Assembly: GCA_001899635.1 (NCBI GenBank)
Contig: MKVQ01000048.1
Location: 558,001-622,000, forward strand
Source of the DNA: Myxococcales bacterium 68-20
Lineage (GTDB): Bacteria > Myxococcota_A > Polyangia > Polyangiales > Polyangiaceae
DNA length: 64,000 nucleotides
Reading direction: 5' to 3'
Position 1 is the stretch's first letter, and each line of letters starts with the position of its first letter. A program made the translations under genes and the position numbers. Shown piece by piece: positions 37,619 through 47,285 of the stretch. The notes beneath the pieces are model-generated. The model saw nothing but the letters and a program-made list of their open reading frames with translations. It was not told the origin of the DNA and ran no database searches.

Positions 37619-37914
37619 CGCCTGGAAGCTTGAGCCTCGGTCCAGTACCGAGCAAGCCGGGCGACTCGACGCCTGCAGACAATCGATGCGCCGCCCCTCG
37701 ATCGCAGCGCCTCGCATCGGGGGCTCGCGCGATGCCAGCAACGCCCTCGCCTCCCCGAAGGTCTGACGCTGGCGTCGGGTGCGCTTACATCGGCCCCTTC
37801 GGCTGAGCTCCACTGCCTGAACGTCGATGCATTTTTCGGGATCGGATCGCGCCTGGAGATCGATTCCTCGATGTGACAGCCGCGGCGGCACTAGCCTCGA
37901 CGACGGGACCGAGC

Positions 37915-38454
37915 ATGGCCGAATCGTCGTCTTCGACCTTCCGTGACCGCGCCGAGGCGGTGAGCGGATCGGTCTGGCGATGTCTACGCCGGTTCGGCGT
38001 CCCCGCGTCCGATGTGGACGACTGCTTCCAGGCCATCCTCCTGCAGCTCCACGCGCGCTGGGATCGCCTCGGCCTCCTGCCCGTTCAGGAGCTCCGGAGC
38101 TATGCGTGCTGCATCGCCATCGGCGTCGCGCGCGATGCGGCCCGCGCACGCCGGCGCACGGAGCAGGTGTCGACGCCGCTCGCCGAGGAGCTGCCCGCCG
38201 AAGGCACGCCCGAGACAGTGGCCGAGAGACAGCAAGACCTTGCTCGCCTCGACACGATCCTCGCGACGCTCACCGACGAGCGACGCGAGGTGTTCGTCCT
38301 CTTCGAGCTCGAAGGCCTCACCGGCCCCGAGATCGCCGAGCACCTTGGGCTTCCTGCCGGGACAGTCGCCTCCCGGCTCCGTCGCGCACGCGACGACTTC
38401 GAGGCCGCGGTCTCGCGAATGCGCGCCGTCGATTCACGGAGAAACCGTTCATGA
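37915..38454 (+). CDS. ECF-type RNA polymerase sigma factor
   Basis: The protein is 179 aa. Sigma region 2 spans about residues 20-75 (VWRCLRRFGVPASDVDDCFQ, RSYACCIAIGVARDAARARR). Region 4 spans 115-165 (LATLTDERREVFVLFELEGL, EIAEHLGLPAGTVASRLRRA), with a canonical helix-turn-helix. No C-terminal extension is present. It is first in a run of seven genes and overlaps the next by ATGA, so it probably controls, directly or by autoregulation, the surface-protein genes that follow. Its promoter should lie in the 296-bp gap 37619-37914. Confidence 0.9.
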   Translation: MAESSSSTFRDRAEAVSGSVWRCLRRFGVPASDVDDCFQAILLQLHARWDRLGLLPVQELRSYACCIAIGVARDAARARRRTEQVSTPLAEELPAEGTPETVAERQQDLARLDTILATLTDERREVFVLFELEGLTGPEIAEHLGLPAGTVASRLRRARDDFEAAVSRMRAVDSRRNRS

Positions 38455-39281
38455 GCCAGTTCCCCAAGAGATGGATCGACGAGCTCGGCGAGGGCGACGC
38501 GCGACGTCTCCTCGAGAGCGCCCGCTCCGACGTGCCGCCCGCCAGGATGGTCGCTGCCGCGATCCTGACGGCCGACAAGAGCACGAGTGCTGCGGAGTCC
38601 GCGCCCGAGTCGACCGTTCGCATGTCCGGCCGGAGCCGTCGCGTGCGGAACACCGCGCTCGTCACCGGCGCGCTCGTCATCGGCGCTGCCGCGCTGATGG
38701 CAGTAACGCGCGAGGAGTCGCGGACGAGCACGAGCACGAACACGACGGAAGTGCCGCGCCGCGCACCGGCGAACACGAACGTGAACGTCGACGTCGACGA
38801 GCCGGCGACGACGCCACTGGCCGAAGGCACCTCGATCGCCGAGCTCCCCGACGCTCCCGTCGCGCCGCGGCCAGCCGCTCCCCCCGCCAAGAGCACCGAG
38901 CGGACCGCCGATCTCCTCCGTGAGGCGAACCTCCTTCGAGCGCGCGGGCAGTGGGCCGAGGCCGCGACGACGTACCGGAAGGTGATCGATCTCGGGCCCG
39001 ACTCGGCCGAGGCCTATCCCGCCGACGTCGCGCTCGGCAACCTCGAGCTCCAGCAGAACCGCCCGCTCCCTGCCCTCGCCCGCTACGAGCATGCGCTCGC
39101 GAAACATCCCAGCGGCGCGCTGTCGGAGGAAGCTCGCTGGGGAAAGGCTCGTGCGCTTCGCGCCGCCGGCCGCACCGCCGAGGAGCGCGCCGCGCTCGAA
39201 GACTTCCGCAAGCACCATCCCGACAGCCCGCTCGCGTCCGTCGCCGCGCAACGTCTCGCCGAGATCGGAGACTCGAGATGA
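38451..39281 (+). CDS. Membrane protein with TPR-like C-terminus, likely anti-sigma partner
   Basis: The protein is 276 aa. The N-terminal ~60 residues (RWIDELGEGDARRLLESARS) face a single membrane segment ALVTGALVIGAAALMAV at about residues 68-84. A Thr/Pro-rich linker follows. Residues ~150-270 hold tetratricopeptide-like helices (EANLLRARGQWAEAATTYRK, PALARYEHALAKHPSGALSE). One membrane span directly after an ECF gene is the arrangement of anti-sigma factors, with a periplasmic sensing part. No zinc-finger ASD motif is seen, so the assignment is inferred from context. Confidence 0.75.
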   Translation: MSQFPKRWIDELGEGDARRLLESARSDVPPARMVAAAILTADKSTSAAESAPESTVRMSGRSRRVRNTALVTGALVIGAAALMAVTREESRTSTSTNTTEVPRRAPANTNVNVDVDEPATTPLAEGTSIAELPDAPVAPRPAAPPAKSTERTADLLREANLLRARGQWAEAATTYRKVIDLGPDSAEAYPADVALGNLELQQNRPLPALARYEHALAKHPSGALSEEARWGKARALRAAGRTAEERAALEDFRKHHPDSPLASVAAQRLAEIGDSR

Positions 39282-40498
39282 GCCTGCGCTCTTCCCTCTT
39301 CCAGCCATTGCGACGGTCGCCGCTCGCTGGGCTCTTGGCCGGCGGAAGTGTCCTCCTCGTCACGTGGGCGGCCGGCTGCTCGACGTACGACGACCGCATC
39401 GGGTACGTGGCGGCGCCGCCGGTGCAGCAGCCGCCGCTCTCACCGTCGACCGCCGACGCCTCGGTCGATGGCAGCGCCGACGCGGTGTACTGCGCGACCT
39501 CGGAGTGCCCGGCACCGTACGCGACGTGTGGCAACTCGCAGTATCGCTGCGACAAGAACCTCGACAGCGACAACTACAACTGCGGGGCGTGCGGAGTCGA
39601 ATGTCCCGGCGCCAACGACACGACGGTCGAAAAAGTGCTCCACGCCGACTGGCGCTGCAGCTCCGGCGCCTGCGCGATGTCGTGCATGCAGGGGTTCAGC
39701 AACTGCAACGGCTCGCCCGGCGACGGCTGCGAGGTCAACACGCAATGCGACCCTGACAACTGCGGGGGCTGCGGGATCAAGTGTGGCGACGGCGTCGAGT
39801 GCATCCTCGGCACGTGCGGATGCAAGCCCGGTCTCACCCAGTGCCAGCCCTCGACGTGCACCAACTACGACATGCGCGCGTGCAGCGCGCTCGACGTCGA
39901 CGACGAGAACTGCGGGGCTTGCGGTCACGCGTGCCCGACAGGTGACGACAACCCACCGCACACGTATCGAGGCTGCGCGAACAGCGAGTGTGATCACTAC
40001 AAGTGCGAGCGGTCCTGGGAGGACTGCAACAACGACCTCCAGAAGGACGGGTGCGAGGTCGATGTCGACAACGACCCGAACAACTGCGGCGCGTGCGGCT
40101 TCAAGTGCGCCGCCGGCCAGAAATGCTCCGAAGGCCAGTGCCTCTGCGAGCCCGGCGCGCAGCTCTGCGAGTTCATGCAGGGCGACCCGCCCGCGCTGAA
40201 GTCGTACTGCTTCCACGTCGACGTCGATCCGAGGAACTGCGGCGCGTGCGGGCGCGCTTGCCCCATCCCGCCCGACGAGAACGCGACGCGTGCCTGCCGC
40301 GACGGCCGCTGCATGGTCGAGTGCAAACCCGGCCGCGCGGACTGCGACGCCGACACGAACAACGGCTGCGAGACGTCGACCGACTCCGACCCGAACAACT
40401 GCGGCGGCTGCGGGATCAAATGTGACATCGCCGCGGGCCAGCCCTGCATCCGCGGACAGTGCGCGCTCGCACCTTGCCCGGAGCGTCCGGTCCAATGA
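39278..40498 (+). CDS. Cys-rich lipoprotein with six NCG(A/G)CG repeats
   Basis: The protein is 406 aa. The signal ends VLLVTWAAGCS (lipobox Cys). Six copies of N-C-G-(A/G)-C-G-x-x-C are spaced along the chain (YNCGACGVEC, DNCGGCGIKC, ENCGACGHAC, NNCGACGFKC, RNCGACGRAC, NNCGGCGIKC), each following an Asp-rich loop. This is a disulfide-rich surface repeat that is frequent in myxobacterial lipoproteins. It overlaps both neighbours by 4 nt. Probably an outer-membrane anchored adhesive or structural protein. Confidence 0.82.
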   Translation: MSLRSSLFQPLRRSPLAGLLAGGSVLLVTWAAGCSTYDDRIGYVAAPPVQQPPLSPSTADASVDGSADAVYCATSECPAPYATCGNSQYRCDKNLDSDNYNCGACGVECPGANDTTVEKVLHADWRCSSGACAMSCMQGFSNCNGSPGDGCEVNTQCDPDNCGGCGIKCGDGVECILGTCGCKPGLTQCQPSTCTNYDMRACSALDVDDENCGACGHACPTGDDNPPHTYRGCANSECDHYKCERSWEDCNNDLQKDGCEVDVDNDPNNCGACGFKCAAGQKCSEGQCLCEPGAQLCEFMQGDPPALKSYCFHVDVDPRNCGACGRACPIPPDENATRACRDGRCMVECKPGRADCDADTNNGCETSTDSDPNNCGGCGIKCDIAAGQPCIRGQCALAPCPERPVQ

Positions 40499-41670
40499 GT
40501 ACCACCAAGCTCGCTCTCCTCCTCTCCTTGCCCGTGGCGCTCCTTGCCGGCGCCTCCTGCGCGGAGAGCTCCGAGAGCGCTCCGCCGGGGGACGACGCCG
40601 GCACCACGGACTCGAGCATCCCGCAGGCCGATACCGGAACGTCCGATGCGAGCCCGGACGCGGGGACGGATGAATGTGTCGGTGACTGGTGCTCGATCGC
40701 GCTCGAAGGCCTGAAGGACGTCGGGCTCAACGCCATCTGGGGCACTGGACCGGACAACGTCTGGGTCGTCGGCTCACGCGGGTTCGCCGCGCGGTTCGAC
40801 GGGACCAAGTGGGAGGTCCGGCGCGCGAACACGCTGCTGGCTCTCTTCTCGGTCTGGGGCAGCGGCCCGAACGACGTCTGGGCCGGCAACAGCGGCGAGG
40901 CGATCTTTCACTGGGACGGCTCGAGCTGGAAGACGTCGAGCCTCGGCTTCGCGACCGACGATCCGCGCGCCGTCCTCCGCATCGCGGGCGCGGGCCCCGA
41001 GGACGTCTTCGCCCTCGTGGAGCCGAGCTGGAACTTCACCAGCTCGTGTCCGAGCGCGTGGGGCTTCGATGTCCAGGTCGCCTGTCCGAAGATCTACCGA
41101 CGCTCGCGGATCGAGGGTGAGCTCGCGTGGCGGGAGGCTTCGAGCTCGTCCTACTCCTGCGAGAACGTCCTGATCGATCGGACGTTCTGCGTCGACCTGA
41201 ACGGGCTGTGGGTCGATCCGAGCGGCCAGCCCTGGGCGGTCGGTCAGAGCGGCCGCGCCATCCGCCCGCGCGGACCGGCGGCGCCTCCTCTCGTCAGCGG
41301 CGGCCTCGACGAGACGCATGCGATCATCCCCCTCGAGGGGATCCACGGCACCTCGACGGACGACGTGTGGACCGTGGGCGGAGGCGGAACGATCCGGCGC
41401 TTCGCCGGCGGCAAATGGCAGGTCGTCCGCTCACCGACGACCGCCCATCTCCGTGCCGTGTGGGCTCGTTCGGCGAACGACGCTTGGGCGGTCGGCGACG
41501 AAGGTACGATCCTCCACTGGGACGGAGCGACATGGCAGCCGTCGCCATCTCCGCTCACCGAGCGTCCGCGTGCGCTCTACGGAGTGTGGGGCGACGCGAG
41601 CGGCAACACCTGGATCGCCGGCGAGCACGCGCTGCTCCGTCACCGGCCAGAGACGACGGGCCGGCCATGA
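40495..41670 (+). CDS. Lipoprotein with WG-x-x-P-(D/N)-(D/N)-VW propeller-like repeats
   Basis: The protein is 391 aa with a lipobox (LLAGASC) and an Asp/Thr linker. Repeated units include WGTGPDNVWVVGS, WGSGPNDVWAGNSG, GTSTDDVWTVGGGG and ARSANDAWAVGDEG, each followed by a strand such as FDGTKWEV or WDGATWQP. This resembles the beta-propeller-like repeats of secreted proteins from myxobacteria. It shares 4-nt overlaps with the genes on both sides. Binding partner unknown. Confidence 0.8.
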   Translation: MSTTKLALLLSLPVALLAGASCAESSESAPPGDDAGTTDSSIPQADTGTSDASPDAGTDECVGDWCSIALEGLKDVGLNAIWGTGPDNVWVVGSRGFAARFDGTKWEVRRANTLLALFSVWGSGPNDVWAGNSGEAIFHWDGSSWKTSSLGFATDDPRAVLRIAGAGPEDVFALVEPSWNFTSSCPSAWGFDVQVACPKIYRRSRIEGELAWREASSSSYSCENVLIDRTFCVDLNGLWVDPSGQPWAVGQSGRAIRPRGPAAPPLVSGGLDETHAIIPLEGIHGTSTDDVWTVGGGGTIRRFAGGKWQVVRSPTTAHLRAVWARSANDAWAVGDEGTILHWDGATWQPSPSPLTERPRALYGVWGDASGNTWIAGEHALLRHRPETTGRP

Positions 41671-42938
41671 AACGAGCTCTTCCCATCAGCGTCTTGTGCA
41701 TGATCGCCGCCGCAGCGGCGTGCGCCGATTCGAACGACGATCCCCGCCCGCCGATCGACGACACCGACGGCAGCGTCACGCCCCCTTCCGAAGGCGGCCT
41801 CGGCCCGGAGACGAGCGTCGAGGCCGGCACCGACACAGGGACGGAGGCCGGGGTCCGATCGCGTTGCAACGAAGAGGGCTGGTGCCTCGTCCCGCTCCCG
41901 GATCCGCAGGCCCTCGGGGTCAAGAACTTCCGCGTCGTCGGCCTCGCGATGGACGCCCCCGGCAAGGTGTGGGCAGCGACGAACTCGTTCTCGCTCGGCG
42001 ATGGGAACGACACGTCCCATCTCCTCCGCTACGAGAACGGAGCGTGGACGCCCGCGTACGGCGTCGGGCCGCTTCAACCCGGTCCCTTCGAGTACACCCT
42101 GAAGGCGCTCGCCGGTAACGGGACCGGCGCCTTCATGGCGGTCGGCGAGAGCTCCTCGTGGGCCGTGTGGCCGAAGCCGGCGATGGTGCTCCGGATCGAG
42201 GACGGCAAGATCATCGAAGAGCACCCCGAAGGGCTCGTCGGCCTCGCCGCGGTCACCTTCACGAACGAAACGGACGCGTACGCGCTCGACAACGACGGCA
42301 GGGTCTACAAGACGACGATCGGGGGCGCCGGTCCCCTCGTGTGGACCGAGCAAACGGTGCCGCATCCCGCAGGTCCAGGCGGATGGCCGCGGGGGCCGAA
42401 GGCGCTGTTCGCCTCGACCGACGGCAAGCTGATCCTCGGCGGCGAGGACGACTCGTCGTTCGAATTCCCGCGGCCCAAGTACCTCGATCGGCAGACGGAC
42501 GACGGCTCGTGGGTGACGACGTTCTTGCCCCCCTCCTACTTCGATCTGATGGCCGGGGTCTCCGTCGCTCCCGACGCGGTCTGGCTCGCTGGCCCCCACT
42601 TCATCGGCGGAAAGCAGCTGCCGACGGAGGCGCCGTCCCCGGACGCGCCCGACGCGGATGCCGGGGAGCCCGTCTGGAGCACCGTCGCCGCCCCCTACCC
42701 CGAGTTCATCATGCGGTCCCTCTGGGCCCGGAACGCGAACGACATCTGGGCCGCGGGCTACGTCGGCCGCGTCTTCCACTTCGACGGCACGACGTGGAGC
42801 GACGCGAAGCCCGCGCTCCATGGGATGCCGATGACCATCGAGTGGCTCTCCGCCATCACGGGCTGGCCTGCCACCGGGGAGGTGTGGGCCGGCGGCGATA
42901 GCGTCGTCATGCACTACATCCCGAAGGGAACTCCATGA
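41667..42938 (+). CDS. Lipoprotein, propeller-like, related to the preceding gene
   Basis: The protein is 423 aa with signal and lipobox (CMIAAAAAC). After a Gly/Thr/Glu linker it has propeller-like strands, including ARNANDIWAAGYVGRVFHFD with FDGTTWSDAK near the end, the same repeat as in the gene before it. This suggests duplication within the operon followed by divergence. It overlaps by 4 nt at both ends. Surface exposed by inference. Confidence 0.78.
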   Translation: MKRALPISVLCMIAAAAACADSNDDPRPPIDDTDGSVTPPSEGGLGPETSVEAGTDTGTEAGVRSRCNEEGWCLVPLPDPQALGVKNFRVVGLAMDAPGKVWAATNSFSLGDGNDTSHLLRYENGAWTPAYGVGPLQPGPFEYTLKALAGNGTGAFMAVGESSSWAVWPKPAMVLRIEDGKIIEEHPEGLVGLAAVTFTNETDAYALDNDGRVYKTTIGGAGPLVWTEQTVPHPAGPGGWPRGPKALFASTDGKLILGGEDDSSFEFPRPKYLDRQTDDGSWVTTFLPPSYFDLMAGVSVAPDAVWLAGPHFIGGKQLPTEAPSPDAPDADAGEPVWSTVAAPYPEFIMRSLWARNANDIWAAGYVGRVFHFDGTTWSDAKPALHGMPMTIEWLSAITGWPATGEVWAGGDSVVMHYIPKGTP

Positions 42939-44248
42939 GGCTTCATCGAGTAGCTCTCGGCGCGCTGACCTCGATCGCCGCGATCCTGCCGGCGACTCTG
43001 TCCGCGTGCAGCGACGACCCCCAACGCGTCCTCGTCGAGGACGCAGGCGACGAAGCATTTATCGACGCGGCGGTCCCCGAGACTGGACCAACAGGCGAAG
43101 CCGGCCCACGCGATGCGGACGTGGTCGATCTCCCGCCGCGGAAGATCGAGTGCGCGGTCTCGCCGTGTGTCATCGAGATCGCGACCGCCGAGCGCTCGAC
43201 CTGCGCCCTCCTCTCCGACGGCACGGTCCGTTGCTGGGGCTCGAACGACTACGGTCAGCTCGGCCGTGGCCCGATCGACGCCGACGTCGACGACGCCCCG
43301 GCGCCGGTGGCGAACCTCTCGAAGGTGACGCAGCTCTCCAGTGGAGCGAACGGATACTGCGCGCGGGCCGAGGACGGCGTGGTCGCGTGCTGGGGCGACA
43401 ACCAAGCCGGTCAGCTCGGACCGGACGACACGGGCGCGACGTCCTCCGACGTCCCCCGCGCGATCACGGGGCTGCCGAAGGCGCGCGCCGCGTTCATGGG
43501 CGAGGGGATCGCCTGCGCAGCGCTCGAGGCCGGCGACGTGATGTGCTGGGGCCGCAGCAGCTCGGGGAGGATCCCTGCGCTGCACGACGCCGGCGAAGAC
43601 GTCGTACCTCCGACGAAGATCGACCTCGGCGGTCACAAGATCGTCTCGATCGCGCCGGGGCGAACGGCGATCGTCGCCTTGAGCGAGGACGGCACGCTCC
43701 TCTCGTGGGGGCGCCGCAGCCGACCGCAGACCGAGAAGGTCAACACGCTCGGACGCGAGGTCGCGCTCGACTACGCTGCGCCGGGTCCGCTCCTCTCCCC
43801 GGAGCGAGCGACGCTCCTCGGTGGATGGGGTGAAGCAGCGACGGCCGCGGGCGGAGGTGCCGCCTTCCGGTGGGGCGTGCTCGTGGACCAGCGAGGCCCG
43901 GTGCTGCCGGAGCCGGTGCCCTTCGCGACGAGCGCCAAGGCGCAGTGGATCTCGATCGGGCCGAGCGCACAGTTCTGCGCCGTGCTCTCGGACGAGAGCG
44001 TCCGCTGCATCGGCTTCAACAACTACGGCCAGCTCGGCACCGGAGACTTCGACGCCGTCCAGGTGGTCCCCGCGAAGGTCGCGGAGCTCCCCGGCGTGCC
44101 TGCGCGCGTCGCCACGAGCGGCTATCACGCGTGCGCCGTGCTCGTCACCGGCGCGGCCTACTGCTGGGGGCTCAACTCGCGAGGTCAGCTCGGCACCGGC
44201 GATTTCTCTCTCCGCACCACCCCCACCCCCGTGAGGTTCACGCCGTGA
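42935..44248 (+). CDS. RCC1-repeat lipoprotein
   Basis: The protein is 437 aa with a lipobox (ATLSACSDD). RCC1-type repeats are evident: GTVRCWGSNDYGQLG, GVVACWGDNQAGQLG, DVMCWGRSS, ESVRCIGFNNYGQLG and AAYCWGLNSRGQLG. Together they would close a seven-bladed propeller. RCC1-like proteins are abundant in myxobacterial exoproteomes; the ligand is unknown. 4-nt overlaps on both sides keep it in the ECF operon. Confidence 0.88.
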   Translation: MRLHRVALGALTSIAAILPATLSACSDDPQRVLVEDAGDEAFIDAAVPETGPTGEAGPRDADVVDLPPRKIECAVSPCVIEIATAERSTCALLSDGTVRCWGSNDYGQLGRGPIDADVDDAPAPVANLSKVTQLSSGANGYCARAEDGVVACWGDNQAGQLGPDDTGATSSDVPRAITGLPKARAAFMGEGIACAALEAGDVMCWGRSSSGRIPALHDAGEDVVPPTKIDLGGHKIVSIAPGRTAIVALSEDGTLLSWGRRSRPQTEKVNTLGREVALDYAAPGPLLSPERATLLGGWGEAATAAGGGAAFRWGVLVDQRGPVLPEPVPFATSAKAQWISIGPSAQFCAVLSDESVRCIGFNNYGQLGTGDFDAVQVVPAKVAELPGVPARVATSGYHACAVLVTGAAYCWGLNSRGQLGTGDFSLRTTPTPVRFTP

Positions 44249-46026
44249 TCCGGCCCCGCGTCCTCTTCTTCGTTGCTCCGCTCGCGCTCGTGCCCGCGCT
44301 CGCGATCGGGTGCAGCACCAGCAGCCAGGCCCGCGATCCCTTCTCCCCCGACGCGGCGCCCGCGCCCACGACGTTCGAGCCGACCACGTGCTCCGAGCCG
44401 CCGACGTGCTCGACCGATCTCCTCTCGGTGGTCGCCTGCGAGAAGGCGACGCCGTGCGGGCCCGGCCTCGGCTGCCTGAAGGGCGCCTGCGTCCCCGCGT
44501 GCGAGGCTGCGCTCGCGCAACAGAGCACCATCGGCTGCGAGTACTTCGCGACGATCCCGAGCGACGTCATCATCTCGCAGGGCTCCTGTTACGCGGTGAT
44601 GATCGCGAACGTTTGGAACACGCCGGTCGACCTCGCGCTTTCGTGGGGCGACCGCAAGCTCTCGACGAGCTACATCCGGCGGCCGCGAGGAGCCGGCTCG
44701 AACATCACCTACGAGCTACTCCCCGACGGCAAGCTCCCGCCGAACGAGATCGCGATCGCGTTCCTCTCCTCGCGCAAGCCGGCCTCTGGAAGGGACTGGA
44801 CCGGCACCCCGTGTCCCGCCGAGGTGGGCGCCGCGATCACCGAGGAAGCGTGGGTCCCGAACGGCGGACGCGGAAAGGCGTTCCACCTCGAGACCACCGC
44901 GCCCGTCATCACCTACGACATCTATCCGTACGGCGGCGCTCCCACCTACTTCCCGAGCGCCTCGCTCCTCTTGCCCGTCTCGGCGTGGGGAAAGAACTAC
45001 ATCGCGATCGACGGCTATGGGGCGAGCCCGGAGATGCTCAACGGGACCTTCTTCCCGTACATGCAGATCGTCGCGGCCGAGGACGACACGACGGTGAGCC
45101 TCCTCCCGCCGGTGACCCTCCGCGGTGGTCCGAACCTCCCGGACGCCCCGCCCGGCGTGGTCTACACGACGAAGCTCGCGCGCGGCGAGTTCCTCCAGTT
45201 CTCGCAACGTGACGAGGTGAACGGGACGCTGATCGAGTCGGATCGTCCCGTCGCGGTCGTCGGCGGCAACTCGTGCGCCGACATCCCATTCGGCAAGGAC
45301 GCGTGTGATTCGCTCCACCAGGCGCTCCCACCGATCAGCCTCATGGGCGACGCCTACGTGGCGACCCGCTACCGCGATCGCCGGTCGACGAACGACACGA
45401 ACCTGGAGATCGTCCCGTGGCGCATCGTCGGTGTCGTCGATGGGACGGAGCTCCGCTACGATCCCGAGATCCCGGACGCGCCGAAGACCGTCGGGCGCGG
45501 CGAGACCGTCGAGTTCCGGGCGCCGGGCCCGTTCATCGTCCGCACGCAGGACAAGGCGCATCCGATCTACGTCGGGAGCTACATGACCGCGGGCGACCTG
45601 GCGCCCTACCACCCGAGCGCGAGCGACTTCACGAGTGGACACGGCGATCCCGAGTGGGTCAACGTCCCGCCGCTCGATCAGTTCATCTCGAACTACGTCT
45701 TCCTCACCGATCCCACGTTCGGGAACACGAACCTCGTCTTCGTCCGCTCCACCGCGAACGGCGGTGGTAAGGACGTCACGCTCGACTGCCTCGGCCCCGT
45801 CACCGGCTGGCAGAAGGTCGGCTCGAGCGACTACGAGATGGCCCGCGTCGACCTCATGTTCCGGGGCCAGCCCGTCGGTGAGTGCGCGAACGGCGCCCAC
45901 CGCGCGTGGAGCGACGCTCCGTTCGGCCTGACGGTCTGGGGCTTCGACGACTATGCGAGCTACGGGTACGTCGCCGGCATGTCGGCGAAGCCGCTGAACG
46001 AGGTACGCGTCCCGGTGATCAGGTGA
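44245..46026 (+). CDS. IgGFc-binding-like lipoprotein
   Basis: The protein is 593 aa with a GTG start that overlaps the preceding stop as GTGA. Signal ALVPALAIGC. After a short Cys-rich segment (GPGLGCLKGACVPACEAA) the main domain reads like the IgGFc-binding N-terminal family: PVITYDIYPYGG, LLPVSAWGKNYIAIDGYG, VAAEDDTTVSLLPPVTL, FSQRDEVNGTLIESDRPVAV, GGNSCADIPFGKDACDSLHQ and AFGLTVWGFDDYASYGYVAG-like end. Such proteins are probably large surface adhesins. It is the last gene of the overlapping series. Confidence 0.85.
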   Translation: MIRPRVLFFVAPLALVPALAIGCSTSSQARDPFSPDAAPAPTTFEPTTCSEPPTCSTDLLSVVACEKATPCGPGLGCLKGACVPACEAALAQQSTIGCEYFATIPSDVIISQGSCYAVMIANVWNTPVDLALSWGDRKLSTSYIRRPRGAGSNITYELLPDGKLPPNEIAIAFLSSRKPASGRDWTGTPCPAEVGAAITEEAWVPNGGRGKAFHLETTAPVITYDIYPYGGAPTYFPSASLLLPVSAWGKNYIAIDGYGASPEMLNGTFFPYMQIVAAEDDTTVSLLPPVTLRGGPNLPDAPPGVVYTTKLARGEFLQFSQRDEVNGTLIESDRPVAVVGGNSCADIPFGKDACDSLHQALPPISLMGDAYVATRYRDRRSTNDTNLEIVPWRIVGVVDGTELRYDPEIPDAPKTVGRGETVEFRAPGPFIVRTQDKAHPIYVGSYMTAGDLAPYHPSASDFTSGHGDPEWVNVPPLDQFISNYVFLTDPTFGNTNLVFVRSTANGGGKDVTLDCLGPVTGWQKVGSSDYEMARVDLMFRGQPVGECANGAHRAWSDAPFGLTVWGFDDYASYGYVAGMSAKPLNEVRVPVIR

Positions 46027-46130: not shown

Positions 46131-47285
46131 ATGAGAGGAGCGCGCGAAGCACGGCCGCGCCTGTTCGCGGTGGTGGTCGCGTTGTTGCTCCCTCTCGCAA
46201 CGCATGGAACGGCTCGCGCGGAAGAGACGCCGGTCCGGATCCTCATCCGCACGATCGTCCCGCTCGACGAGGCGCTGCACGAGCGTACCGTCGGCCAGGT
46301 GAGCGATCTGCGGGCGAAGGTCGAACGCGCGACCGACGCCACGCTCGAGCCGTCGCTGACCGCACGCCTCGCGCAGGCGCGCTCCCTCGCCACGCGCCGG
46401 GAGGCAGCGATGGTCGTCTGGTTCGAGCATCCGCCGGACGCGGGGCCAATCGTCTTCATCGCCCTTCCATCGCGGGAGCGCGTGCTCGTCCGCCCGGTCG
46501 CCGCCAGGCCGAACGACGTGATGGCCCGGTCCACCTCGGCCATGCTCGAGGCTGCCTCGCTCGTCGTGCGGAGCGCGCTTCTCGCCTTCGAGGCGGGCGC
46601 CCCGCTCGGCGTTCCGAACGAGGAGCTCACGCGCGACGAGACTCCAGCAGCGCCCCAAGAGCCGGCGCGGGAAGCGCCCGCCCCGGCTCCTTCACCGTCG
46701 CGTCCAACGCGACCGCGCCAAGCGCGACCGAGCGTCCCCGCCGAACAGCCCGTGACGTGGCGGCCCTTCGTCGGAGCCGGCTGGCAGGTGACGATCGACG
46801 GCCGGAGCCCGGCAGGCGCGCGCGCCGGTGTGCTCGAAGGCGGCGTTCGCTACGGACGGTGGGCCGCGCTCACACGCGGGTCGCTCGGTCTGCCAAGCCA
46901 CACGCGCGGCGAGCTCGCGTCCCTCGACGTGAGCAGGCACAGCGCCAGCATCCTGTTCGGGTACACGTTCGCGCGCACGAGCTCCGTCGAGCTCGAGGGG
47001 CTCGCCGGGACCGGGGCGGTCATCGTCCGCCGCACGGCGTTCGCGCGCGACGCGAGCTTCTCGCCGACACCGCCGACCACTCTCACGACGCCAGCCGGCG
47101 TCGCCGAGGTGCGCGTCTCGTGGACGGCGTCGCGTTCTCTCCCGGTGCGCCTCGGCCTCGCGGCGGGCGCCGACGTCCTCGTCCAGCCGCCATCGTTCTC
47201 GTACGAGTCAGCACGTGGCGTGGTTCGGCATCCGGCGTGGTTCGTGGAACCGCGCCTCGGATTCGTCGCTGTGCTCCAGCCCTGA
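46131..47285 (+). CDS. Exported protein with C-terminal beta-barrel-like domain
   Basis: The protein is 384 aa. Residues 1-30 form a signal peptide (LFAVVVALLLPLATHGTARA). An N-terminal alpha/beta domain (~30-165) is followed by a Pro/Ala/Arg linker (APAPAPSPSRPTRPRQARPS). The C-terminal ~170 residues alternate short strands (VTWRPFVGAGWQVTIDG, HSASILFGYTFARTSSVELE), as in small outer-membrane barrels. It lies 104 bp after the IgGFc-like gene, so it may be a trailing member of the same transcript. No family named. Confidence 0.68.
   Translation: MRGAREARPRLFAVVVALLLPLATHGTARAEETPVRILIRTIVPLDEALHERTVGQVSDLRAKVERATDATLEPSLTARLAQARSLATRREAAMVVWFEHPPDAGPIVFIALPSRERVLVRPVAARPNDVMARSTSAMLEAASLVVRSALLAFEAGAPLGVPNEELTRDETPAAPQEPAREAPAPAPSPSRPTRPRQARPSVPAEQPVTWRPFVGAGWQVTIDGRSPAGARAGVLEGGVRYGRWAALTRGSLGLPSHTRGELASLDVSRHSASILFGYTFARTSSVELEGLAGTGAVIVRRTAFARDASFSPTPPTTLTTPAGVAEVRVSWTASRSLPVRLGLAAGADVLVQPPSFSYESARGVVRHPAWFVEPRLGFVAVLQP

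Follow-up and report, generated by a model that had tools for sequence, protein, structure and literature searches.

The window analyzed here is a 64,000-nucleotide (nt) stretch of the genome of Myxococcales bacterium 68-20 (contig MKVQ01000048.1, positions 558,001–622,000 of the forward strand), and its positions 37915–46026 carry a seven-gene operon that begins with the gene for an extracytoplasmic function (ECF) sigma factor. Sequence comparison places this operon among about 130 whole or incomplete cassettes that are scattered through the genome and built on the gene order B-E-T-C-P-P-R-G, in which B is a barrel protein, E the ECF sigma factor, T a tetratricopeptide repeat (TPR) membrane protein, C a Cys-repeat lipoprotein, P1 and P2 propeller-like lipoproteins, R an RCC1 protein, and G an IgGFc protein. 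We refer to B-E-T as the switch and to C-P-P-R-G as the payload. The copy number, the gene order, the division into two nearly independent blocks, the payload-only similarity between cassettes of the same genome, and a conserved promoter-like motif can all be read from the sequences, and the explanation that we consider likely is that switches and five-lipoprotein payloads have been re-paired by recombination over evolution.

A dispersed cassette family in one genome

The window's own genome (G000; 11.89 Mb, 52 contigs) was searched for paralogues of the window proteins. The C search gave 146 matches at an E-value ≤1e−3, corresponding to 138 places after removal of eight second pieces of the same gene; this number is a lower bound (150 of 197 candidates were scored) and includes fragments at contig ends. 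Genes at all 138 places were predicted with a purpose-built codon-usage caller that gave a bonus to 4-nt and 1-nt overlaps, and were labeled with hidden Markov models (HMMs) grown from the window proteins, and thus built on the same data. The genome contained at least 138 C places, 92 complete seven-gene cassettes (77 with a canonical B as well), and 121 complete payloads; the seven- and eight-gene table depends on a canonical B and on gene labels, which makes it an underestimate. The HMMs labeled 127 ECF, 110 T, 138 C, approximately 262 P, 139 R, and 130 G genes in the fetched places, and the strings anchored on C read exactly E-T-C-P-P-R-G at 81 of the 138. An ECF gene lay 0.7–2.6 kb upstream of C on the same strand at 125 of the 138 places; in the genome as a whole, the ECF matches numbered at least 150, and a C gene accompanied 125 of them.

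The summed cassette span was 1,175,692 bases, or 9.9% of the genome. The cassettes were distributed over 38 contigs, with up to 14 on one 694-kb contig, and are therefore not an effect of binning. The median pairwise identity per payload gene was 31–40%, and the nearest-neighbor identity was 63% for E and 43% for T. In close pairs, each of the eight genes showed purifying selection (median ratio of nonsynonymous to synonymous substitution rates, dN/dS, 0.23–0.45), which argues against decay. Gene-wide positive selection on the payload genes was sought and not seen: the whole-gene dN/dS never exceeded 0.62 in the close pairs tested. No recombinase or mobile element was seen beside the cassettes among the 12 largest neighbor families, which were inspected by sequence, and the largest unlabeled neighbor family besides B had nine members and was kinase-like by sequence.

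The operon in the window

The seven frames on the + strand contain no internal stops, and the coordinates and six 4-nt overlaps put forward in an original prediction made from the window alone were confirmed, with five ATGA overlaps and one GTGA, the latter at the R/G junction. The features are as follows.

37830..37870, + strand: candidate ECF-type promoter, TTTTTCGGGATC ... GATTCCTCG, approximately 45 nt before the ATG of E; tentative
37915..38454, + strand: E, ECF sigma factor, 179 amino acids (family matches)
38451..39281, + strand: T, single-span membrane protein with a C-terminal TPR domain, predicted anti-sigma factor/sensor (Pfam TPR, AlphaFold, Foldseek)
39278..40498, + strand: C, Cys-repeat lipoprotein, payload gene 1 (family matches); the exchange boundary of the family lies around its signal peptide/linker
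40495..41670, + strand: P1, propeller-like lipoprotein (Tectonin below the cut-off; HMM family)
41667..42938, + strand: P2, lipoprotein related to P1 (HMM family)
42935..44248, + strand: R, RCC1 lipoprotein (Pfam RCC1)
44245..46026, + strand: G, IgGFc_binding lipoprotein, final payload gene (Pfam)
46131..47285, + strand: B-like gene of an outlying B sub-family, 3′ of the operon (HMM match to family B)

ECF sigma factors have sigma-70 regions 2 and 4 and lack region 3. E matched PF04542 and PF08281 above the cut-off and TIGR02937 with 80.2 bits (cut-off 42.9), which places it among the ECF factors; its closest paralogue among the matches listed (C48:341592-342122) stood at 73%. C matched Stig1 with 29.2 bits (cut-off 24.1), and its score against the MXAN_6577-like Cys-rich proteins (NF041328), 81.3 bits, was below the curated cut-off of 100. 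G belongs to the IgGFc_binding family (PF17517, 307.6 bits against a cut-off of 25.6, E-value 1.1e−91). The ECF, TPR, Cys-rich, RCC1, and IgGFc families originally predicted were thus all matched, but the propeller-like assignment proved weak, with Tectonin below the cut-off for P1 and no Pfam family match for P2. At three G000 cassettes (C36_141613, C42_251331, and C49_146816) and three loci of relatives (L314, L318, and L321), an extra RCC1-type gene of approximately 420 amino acids followed G.

Each of the five downstream proteins in the window has a lipobox-like Cys at about residue 19–34 (identified by eye). Over the cassettes, a lipobox pattern rule was satisfied by 88/138 C, 111/133 P1, 112/126 P2, 72/129 R, and 106/127 G proteins, the misses including wrong start calls and cut genes, and by 2/119 E, 2/106 T, and 13/105 B proteins. 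C, P1, P2, R, and G are accordingly predicted lipoproteins; they presumably face outwards, and the adhesion or cell-contact role first proposed for them may apply but is putative.

Two blocks with nearly separate histories

The pairwise similarities of the genes were compared across copies using Mantel-type tests with 1000 permutations, in which kinship among the copies was ignored. Among the 92 complete copies (77 for correlations involving B), the rank correlations were 0.41–0.58 within B-E-T (E-T 0.58, B-E 0.42, B-T 0.42) and 0.69–0.83 within C-P-P-R-G (C-P1 0.72, C-G 0.69, P1-G 0.83), these individual values being reached by 0/1000 permutations. Between the switch and the payload, the correlations were −0.00 to 0.08 (E-G 0.01, T-C 0.07, B-G 0.03). 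Nearest neighbors agreed in 41–48% of cases within B-E-T, in 53–68% within the payload, and in 2–6% across the blocks. In the relative G003 (21 complete copies, 20 with B), the values were 0.57 for E-T, 0.30 for B-E, 0.72 for C-P1, and 0.84 for P1-G within the blocks, and 0.11 for T-C and 0.12 for E-G across them; the same block split was present in 30 pooled copies of relatives. When the cassettes of relatives were assigned to their best G000 cassette, B and E agreed in 28/34 and R and G in 33/41. The sequences therefore resolve into two nearly independent blocks, although the independence is not complete.

DNA evidence for the exchange of payloads

Cassettes with payload DNA at least 78% identical formed 58 pairs, and those with at least 2.4 kb of upstream sequence on both sides were compared, with a threshold of 1e−50 for a B-E-T match. 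All 27 pairs within G000 (78–88% identity) were payload-only, with no B-E-T match; these were drawn from 22 cassettes and are not independent of one another. The cross-genome pairs comprised 16/28 that matched over the whole cassette and 12/28 that were payload-only, and three more were cut by contig ends and uninformative. In the 16 whole-cassette pairs (payload identity 79–92%), the B-E-T match covered most or all of the compared stretch. Measured from the start of C, the left edge of the match in the 39 payload-only pairs fell at +77 in one and at +112 to +234 nt in the other 38, placing the exchange boundary between T and the start of the mature part of C. When 77 C proteins were divided at the lipobox (recognized in 50; the others were split at residue 30), the signal peptide correlated weakly with T (0.09, 12/1000 permutations) and B (0.07, 35/1000) and not with P1, R, or G, and the mature part correlated with G at 0.58.

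Two swaps between species could be read directly across the junction. In G003_L251, the sequence matched C6_136309 at 70% as far as C +105, and from +129 through the end of G it matched C16_410123 at 92%; in G003_L269, it matched C40_524740 at 84% up to +238 and the payload type of C17_72052 at 82% from +162. Short-read misassembly is an unlikely source of such patterns because the identities are mostly 78–92% rather than approximately 100% and the same-genome pairs come from a 52-contig assembly.

The flanks are suggestive of cassette turnover, rearrangement sites, or in-place replacement, with too few cases to build on. Genes behind G matched genes behind a G000 cassette in five named loci; this cassette differed from the best payload match in L300, L301, L314, and L327 and was the same in L355. 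For L307 and L337, the downstream flank matches were located on a cassette's upstream side, whereas the upstream match of L314 lay behind another cassette.

A promoter-like motif between B and E

The stretch from the B stop codon up to before the conserved part of E contained the motif gTGAt.aaa..gg..gg..cCgggcAt, with a log-likelihood ratio of 278 (30 restarts) versus 98 and 94 (12 restarts each) for two simulated sets. It occurred at varying distances from the B stop and with a probability >0.9 in 91/117 copies. The −10 side of the motif co-varied with E (0.14, 0/1000), T (0.11, 6/1000), and B (0.08, 6/1000), and the −35 side with B (0.18, 0/1000), T (0.12, 1/1000), and E (0.09, 15/1000). 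For the intervening spacer, which serves as a linkage control for the boxes, no such co-variation was seen (−0.02 to 0.01; 0.00 against E, 478/1000); G and R co-varied with no part of the motif (all <0.04). The original prediction expected a sigma factor motif upstream of 37915 and elsewhere. Such a promoter-like element does precede E in most copies, and the window candidate can be aligned with the corresponding sequence in front of E in C48_339530, the closest paralogue, a position at which the family motif occurs in other copies; however, the window copy fits the final motif poorly (probability 0.36, and at a different place), so the candidate is tentative.

Earlier motif candidates were rejected, as they represented a conserved N-terminal coding stretch of E or the 3′ end of B, the latter also being matched by a run starting 25 nt before the B stop. 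Dyad and k-mer counts returned mostly general GC-rich words and were dropped. Upstream of B in the G000 cassettes, a TAGACT-like word resembling a sigma-70 −10 element was present in about two-thirds of copies (motif fraction 0.67). Judged by these upstream sequences, B may be made constitutively while E, T, and the payload are switched.

B and T as predicted partners of the sigma factor

In 120 cassettes with a called gene upstream of E, this gene was on the same strand in 111, and 101 of the 111 belonged to family B. The model of B from Labilithrix sp. ACE_MYX5 (L322:2400-3458) comprised a signal helix, an alpha/beta domain (25–121), a linker, and a barrel of approximately eight strands. In structure comparison, the barrel resembled OmpW (Z 17.7, 165 residues, root-mean-square deviation [rmsd] 3.0), and the N-domain more modestly resembled TolB (Z 9.0, 99 residues, rmsd 2.8). 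B is thus predicted to combine an OmpW-like barrel and a TolB-N-like domain, the comparison saying little beyond these two likenesses. Among the 27 members scanned, no Pfam family was found for B, save one stray match (E-value 0.04) in one member, and no TonB-receptor family was found.

The original prediction missed both the approximately 130 paralogous loci and the barrel gene. In the window, the gene upstream of E was not labeled B, and the open frame at 46131–47285 matched the B HMM with an E-value of 1.1e−7 (using a start 39 nt downstream). This gene belongs to a B sub-family of six obtained in the HMM search, to which another outlying B, C42_55937, was added by hand. When T proteins were ranked by similarity to the window T, four of the first five had a B of this sub-family within 8 kb, the fifth had C42_55937, and the next seven had no such outlying B. 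As the positions and orientations of the sub-family B genes vary, B is tied to T and not to a fixed place.

The AlphaFold model of T has a membrane helix (69–86), a Pro-rich linker, and a TPR domain (147–274) mostly with a predicted local distance difference test score (pLDDT) >90. The best solved relative in Foldseek was the YbgF TPR (2xev), followed by BamD; YbgF TPR and BamD are both periplasmic. If the N-terminus of T lies in the cytoplasm, its TPR domain would be on the periplasmic side of the membrane, where the N-domain of B would also lie. Only TPR families reached their cut-offs for the window T, and no FecR match was obtained for 24 T proteins at an E-value ≤0.1. We infer that T would act as an anti-sigma factor and that B would be its sensor.

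Overlaps between neighboring genes

The uninterrupted series of 4-nt overlaps had been taken as a sign of full-length translational coupling between the sigma factor and the lipoproteins. Outside the cassettes, 31/189 neighboring same-strand gene pairs in the fetched stretches shared such an overlap (31/75 for pairs <60 nt apart). All six overlaps were called in 3/92 complete copies, and the individual junctions overlapped in 76/103 (E-T), 31/106 (T-C), 110/133 (C-P1), 110/126 (P1-P2), 32/123 (P2-R), and 79/124 (R-G) copies; because the caller rewarded 4-nt and 1-nt overlaps, these fractions are rough. Without the bonus, the counts were 71, 22, 82, 69, 24, and 58, respectively, and no copy, the window's included, was called with all six. 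The overlaps, being frequent in the background and not conserved among the paralogues, were dropped as the main signal: six in a row is uncommon but not special, and what exceeds chance by far is that the gene order recurs as a whole.

Full-length coupling from the sigma factor to the lipoproteins was not supported, as most copies have an open T/C junction, which lies near the point where the halves recombine, and as B-E-T diverges from the payload in a few places. Such a divergent arrangement, in which E and T (and B where called) point away from C-P-P-R-G, was observed in L309, L320, and the G000 cassettes C23_241928 and C44_197264; there, the payload needs its own promoter or one between the divergent blocks. 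The expectation of one surface unit held in part: block-wise inheritance of the five lipoproteins fits a joint structure, but the sequences do not support one fixed, fully coupled unit of sigma factor and lipoproteins.

Distribution in relatives

A C match at an E-value ≤1e−25 was found in 9/183 genomes of the order, eight of them of the window's genus and one, partial, in another genus; a scan of 58 relatives agreed. The gene order, predicted to be conserved in relatives, recurs in them as well as in the complete copies of G000. All eight genes were present in 20/33 cassettes of G003, 7/10 of G006, 1/3 of G009, and 0/1 of G011, and the one region examined from each of G004 and G007 had no labeled C. 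The G matches at an E-value ≤1e−20, weak ones included, numbered 40 in G003, 14 in G006, and 8, 6, 3, 1, 0, 0, and 0 in seven others. Cassette numbers thus differ strongly within the genus. Among 70 named loci, cassettes occurred in Labilithrix metagenome-assembled genomes (MAGs) and one further Myxococcales MAG (L336); elsewhere, for example in Minicystis and Polyangium, the IgGFc gene had no C, P, or R in front of it, with partial exceptions at L341, where B and E are divergent from G, and at L349, which has a C-like gene on the opposite strand. The scan was steered by G and close patterns, such that distant cassettes could escape it. In another genus of the family, a C-like repeat stretch was observed within an 869-amino-acid open frame (G108:C78:3956-4732).

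Interpretation and alternatives

On our best reading of the sequences, about 120 trans-envelope ECF switches would each drive a set of five lipoproteins, and switches and sets would reassort. A signal would pass from B, a barrel in the outer membrane with a domain in the periplasm, to T, which, with its cytoplasmic N-terminus and periplasmic TPR domain, would release E; E would then transcribe the operon to which it belongs, starting at the promoter that lies between B and E. The five lipoproteins would be made and inherited as one set, probably forming one surface complex, and recombination with an upstream boundary around the C signal peptide/linker would move payloads between switches, a mechanism that we infer.

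Several observations weigh against this reading. The blocks retain residual correlations (T-C 0.068, 36/1000; E-C 0.082, 18/1000; in G003, T-G 0.18, 35/1000), and in the cassettes of relatives the halves often share the same best G000 cassette (T and C in 18/38, E and G in 13/32). The −10 side of the motif also correlates with C (0.081, 15/1000). Only 2/12 payloads without E and T have a strong E-type motif before C (scores 11.3 and 11.6, the upper tenth of scores starting at 10.7 before E, 5.05 before C in ordinary cassettes, and 8.0 before G), and in one of the two, C44_197264, E and T point the opposite way; the mean score of the 12, 4.6, is higher than the 2.1 before C in ordinary cassettes and equal to that before P1 and G. 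Two further loci, L271 and L283, which gave a best-hit impression of swaps, proved by DNA alignment to be one cassette throughout, and the abrupt end of the match at the G stop is seen in whole-cassette pairs too and is thus no proof of a downstream breakpoint. Finally, no anti-sigma family in Pfam or NCBIfam matches T, and the three short helices that precede its membrane helix are modeled with low confidence.

A more far-reaching reading, slightly less likely than not, is that about 120 switch modules and about 120 surface modules are interchangeable at one boundary, so that the lineage would explore pairings of signal and surface combinatorially with boxes tuned to each sigma factor; such tuning would keep many switches insulated from one another. 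It is possible, though rather unlikely, that the cassettes are instead a surface-variation repertoire against grazers or phages, with one coat per switch and the copies serving as a library in which the sensors matter less than diversity. The very many related, divergent payloads and their exchange would fit, but the copies retain their own sigma factor, T, and promoter-like motif, unlike silent donors, and the dN/dS values of the close pairs tested give no sign of gene-wide diversifying selection. Somewhat less likely still are glycan- or polymer-binding modules induced by their ligand, in the manner of the polysaccharide-utilization loci of Bacteroidota: an ECF factor and membrane regulator do adjoin an outer-membrane protein and lipoproteins, and the Tectonin-like and RCC1 repeats would be compatible with ligand binding, but no SusC, SusD, hydrolase, or transporter family is present among the window's eight genes, and apart from B no gene family often recurs beside the cassettes. 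Selfish or neutral spread, in which payload blocks are copied by gene conversion without benefit, is improbable; payload does replace payload, and the cassettes occupy 9.9% of the genome, but all eight genes are under purifying selection in close pairs, the promoter boxes co-vary with E, and the inspected neighbor families contain no recombinase. Plain tandem or dispersed duplication with divergence and no reassortment, the missing cross-half correlation being due to saturation or unequal rates, would agree with the age of most copies (judged by the nearest-neighbor identities of E and T) but is already disfavored and very improbable, because the same data give clear correlations inside each half, B-E-T matches in 16 cross-genome pairs and in 0/27 same-genome pairs of similar payload identity, and two swap junctions were read directly.

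No account of these cassettes was found in the literature searched, in which subscription papers were mostly outside coverage. In the FecA-FecR-FecI system, a TonB-dependent receptor with a signaling domain, a membrane regulator with a FecR domain, and an ECF sigma factor act on a neighboring operon. The cassettes likewise encode an outer-membrane protein, a membrane regulator, and an ECF sigma factor together, the action of the sigma factor on the operon being presumed here; however, instead of a TonB-dependent receptor, B is predicted to be a small barrel of OmpW/OmpA type that carries a TolB-N-like domain, T has TPRs and no FecR match, and the output is five lipoproteins. The SusC/SusD polysaccharide-utilization loci of Bacteroidota include ECF/anti-sigma pairs and carbohydrate-active enzymes, and they resemble the cassettes in the many paralogous, in our case putatively ECF-controlled, surface-lipoprotein loci per genome. 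The cassettes differ in having no SusC/SusD or enzymes (in the window's eight genes) and in the nearly independent histories of regulator and payload. Antigenic variation at vls in Borrelia uses silent, promoterless donors and one expression site. The cassettes are similarly a large surface-protein family exchanging segments, but they include complete operons with their own sigma gene and mostly with the promoter-like motif, and what is exchanged is a payload of five genes. Self-recognition by TraA in Myxococcales (PMC6372800) is, like the cassettes, a case of myxobacterial surface polymorphism; it concerns a single polymorphic receptor locus, whereas the cassettes form a repertoire of switches and payloads.

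If the proposed re-pairing of switches and payloads is correct, a tenth of this genome would be a repertoire of modules, with regulators and surface outputs exchanged as interchangeable units, and regulatory rewiring by recombination would be observable between close species. For the study of specificity and insulation, the cassettes would provide about 120 ECF/promoter pairs as a natural library, and in uncultured Polyangia they would be a candidate system for recognizing prey, kin, or surfaces.

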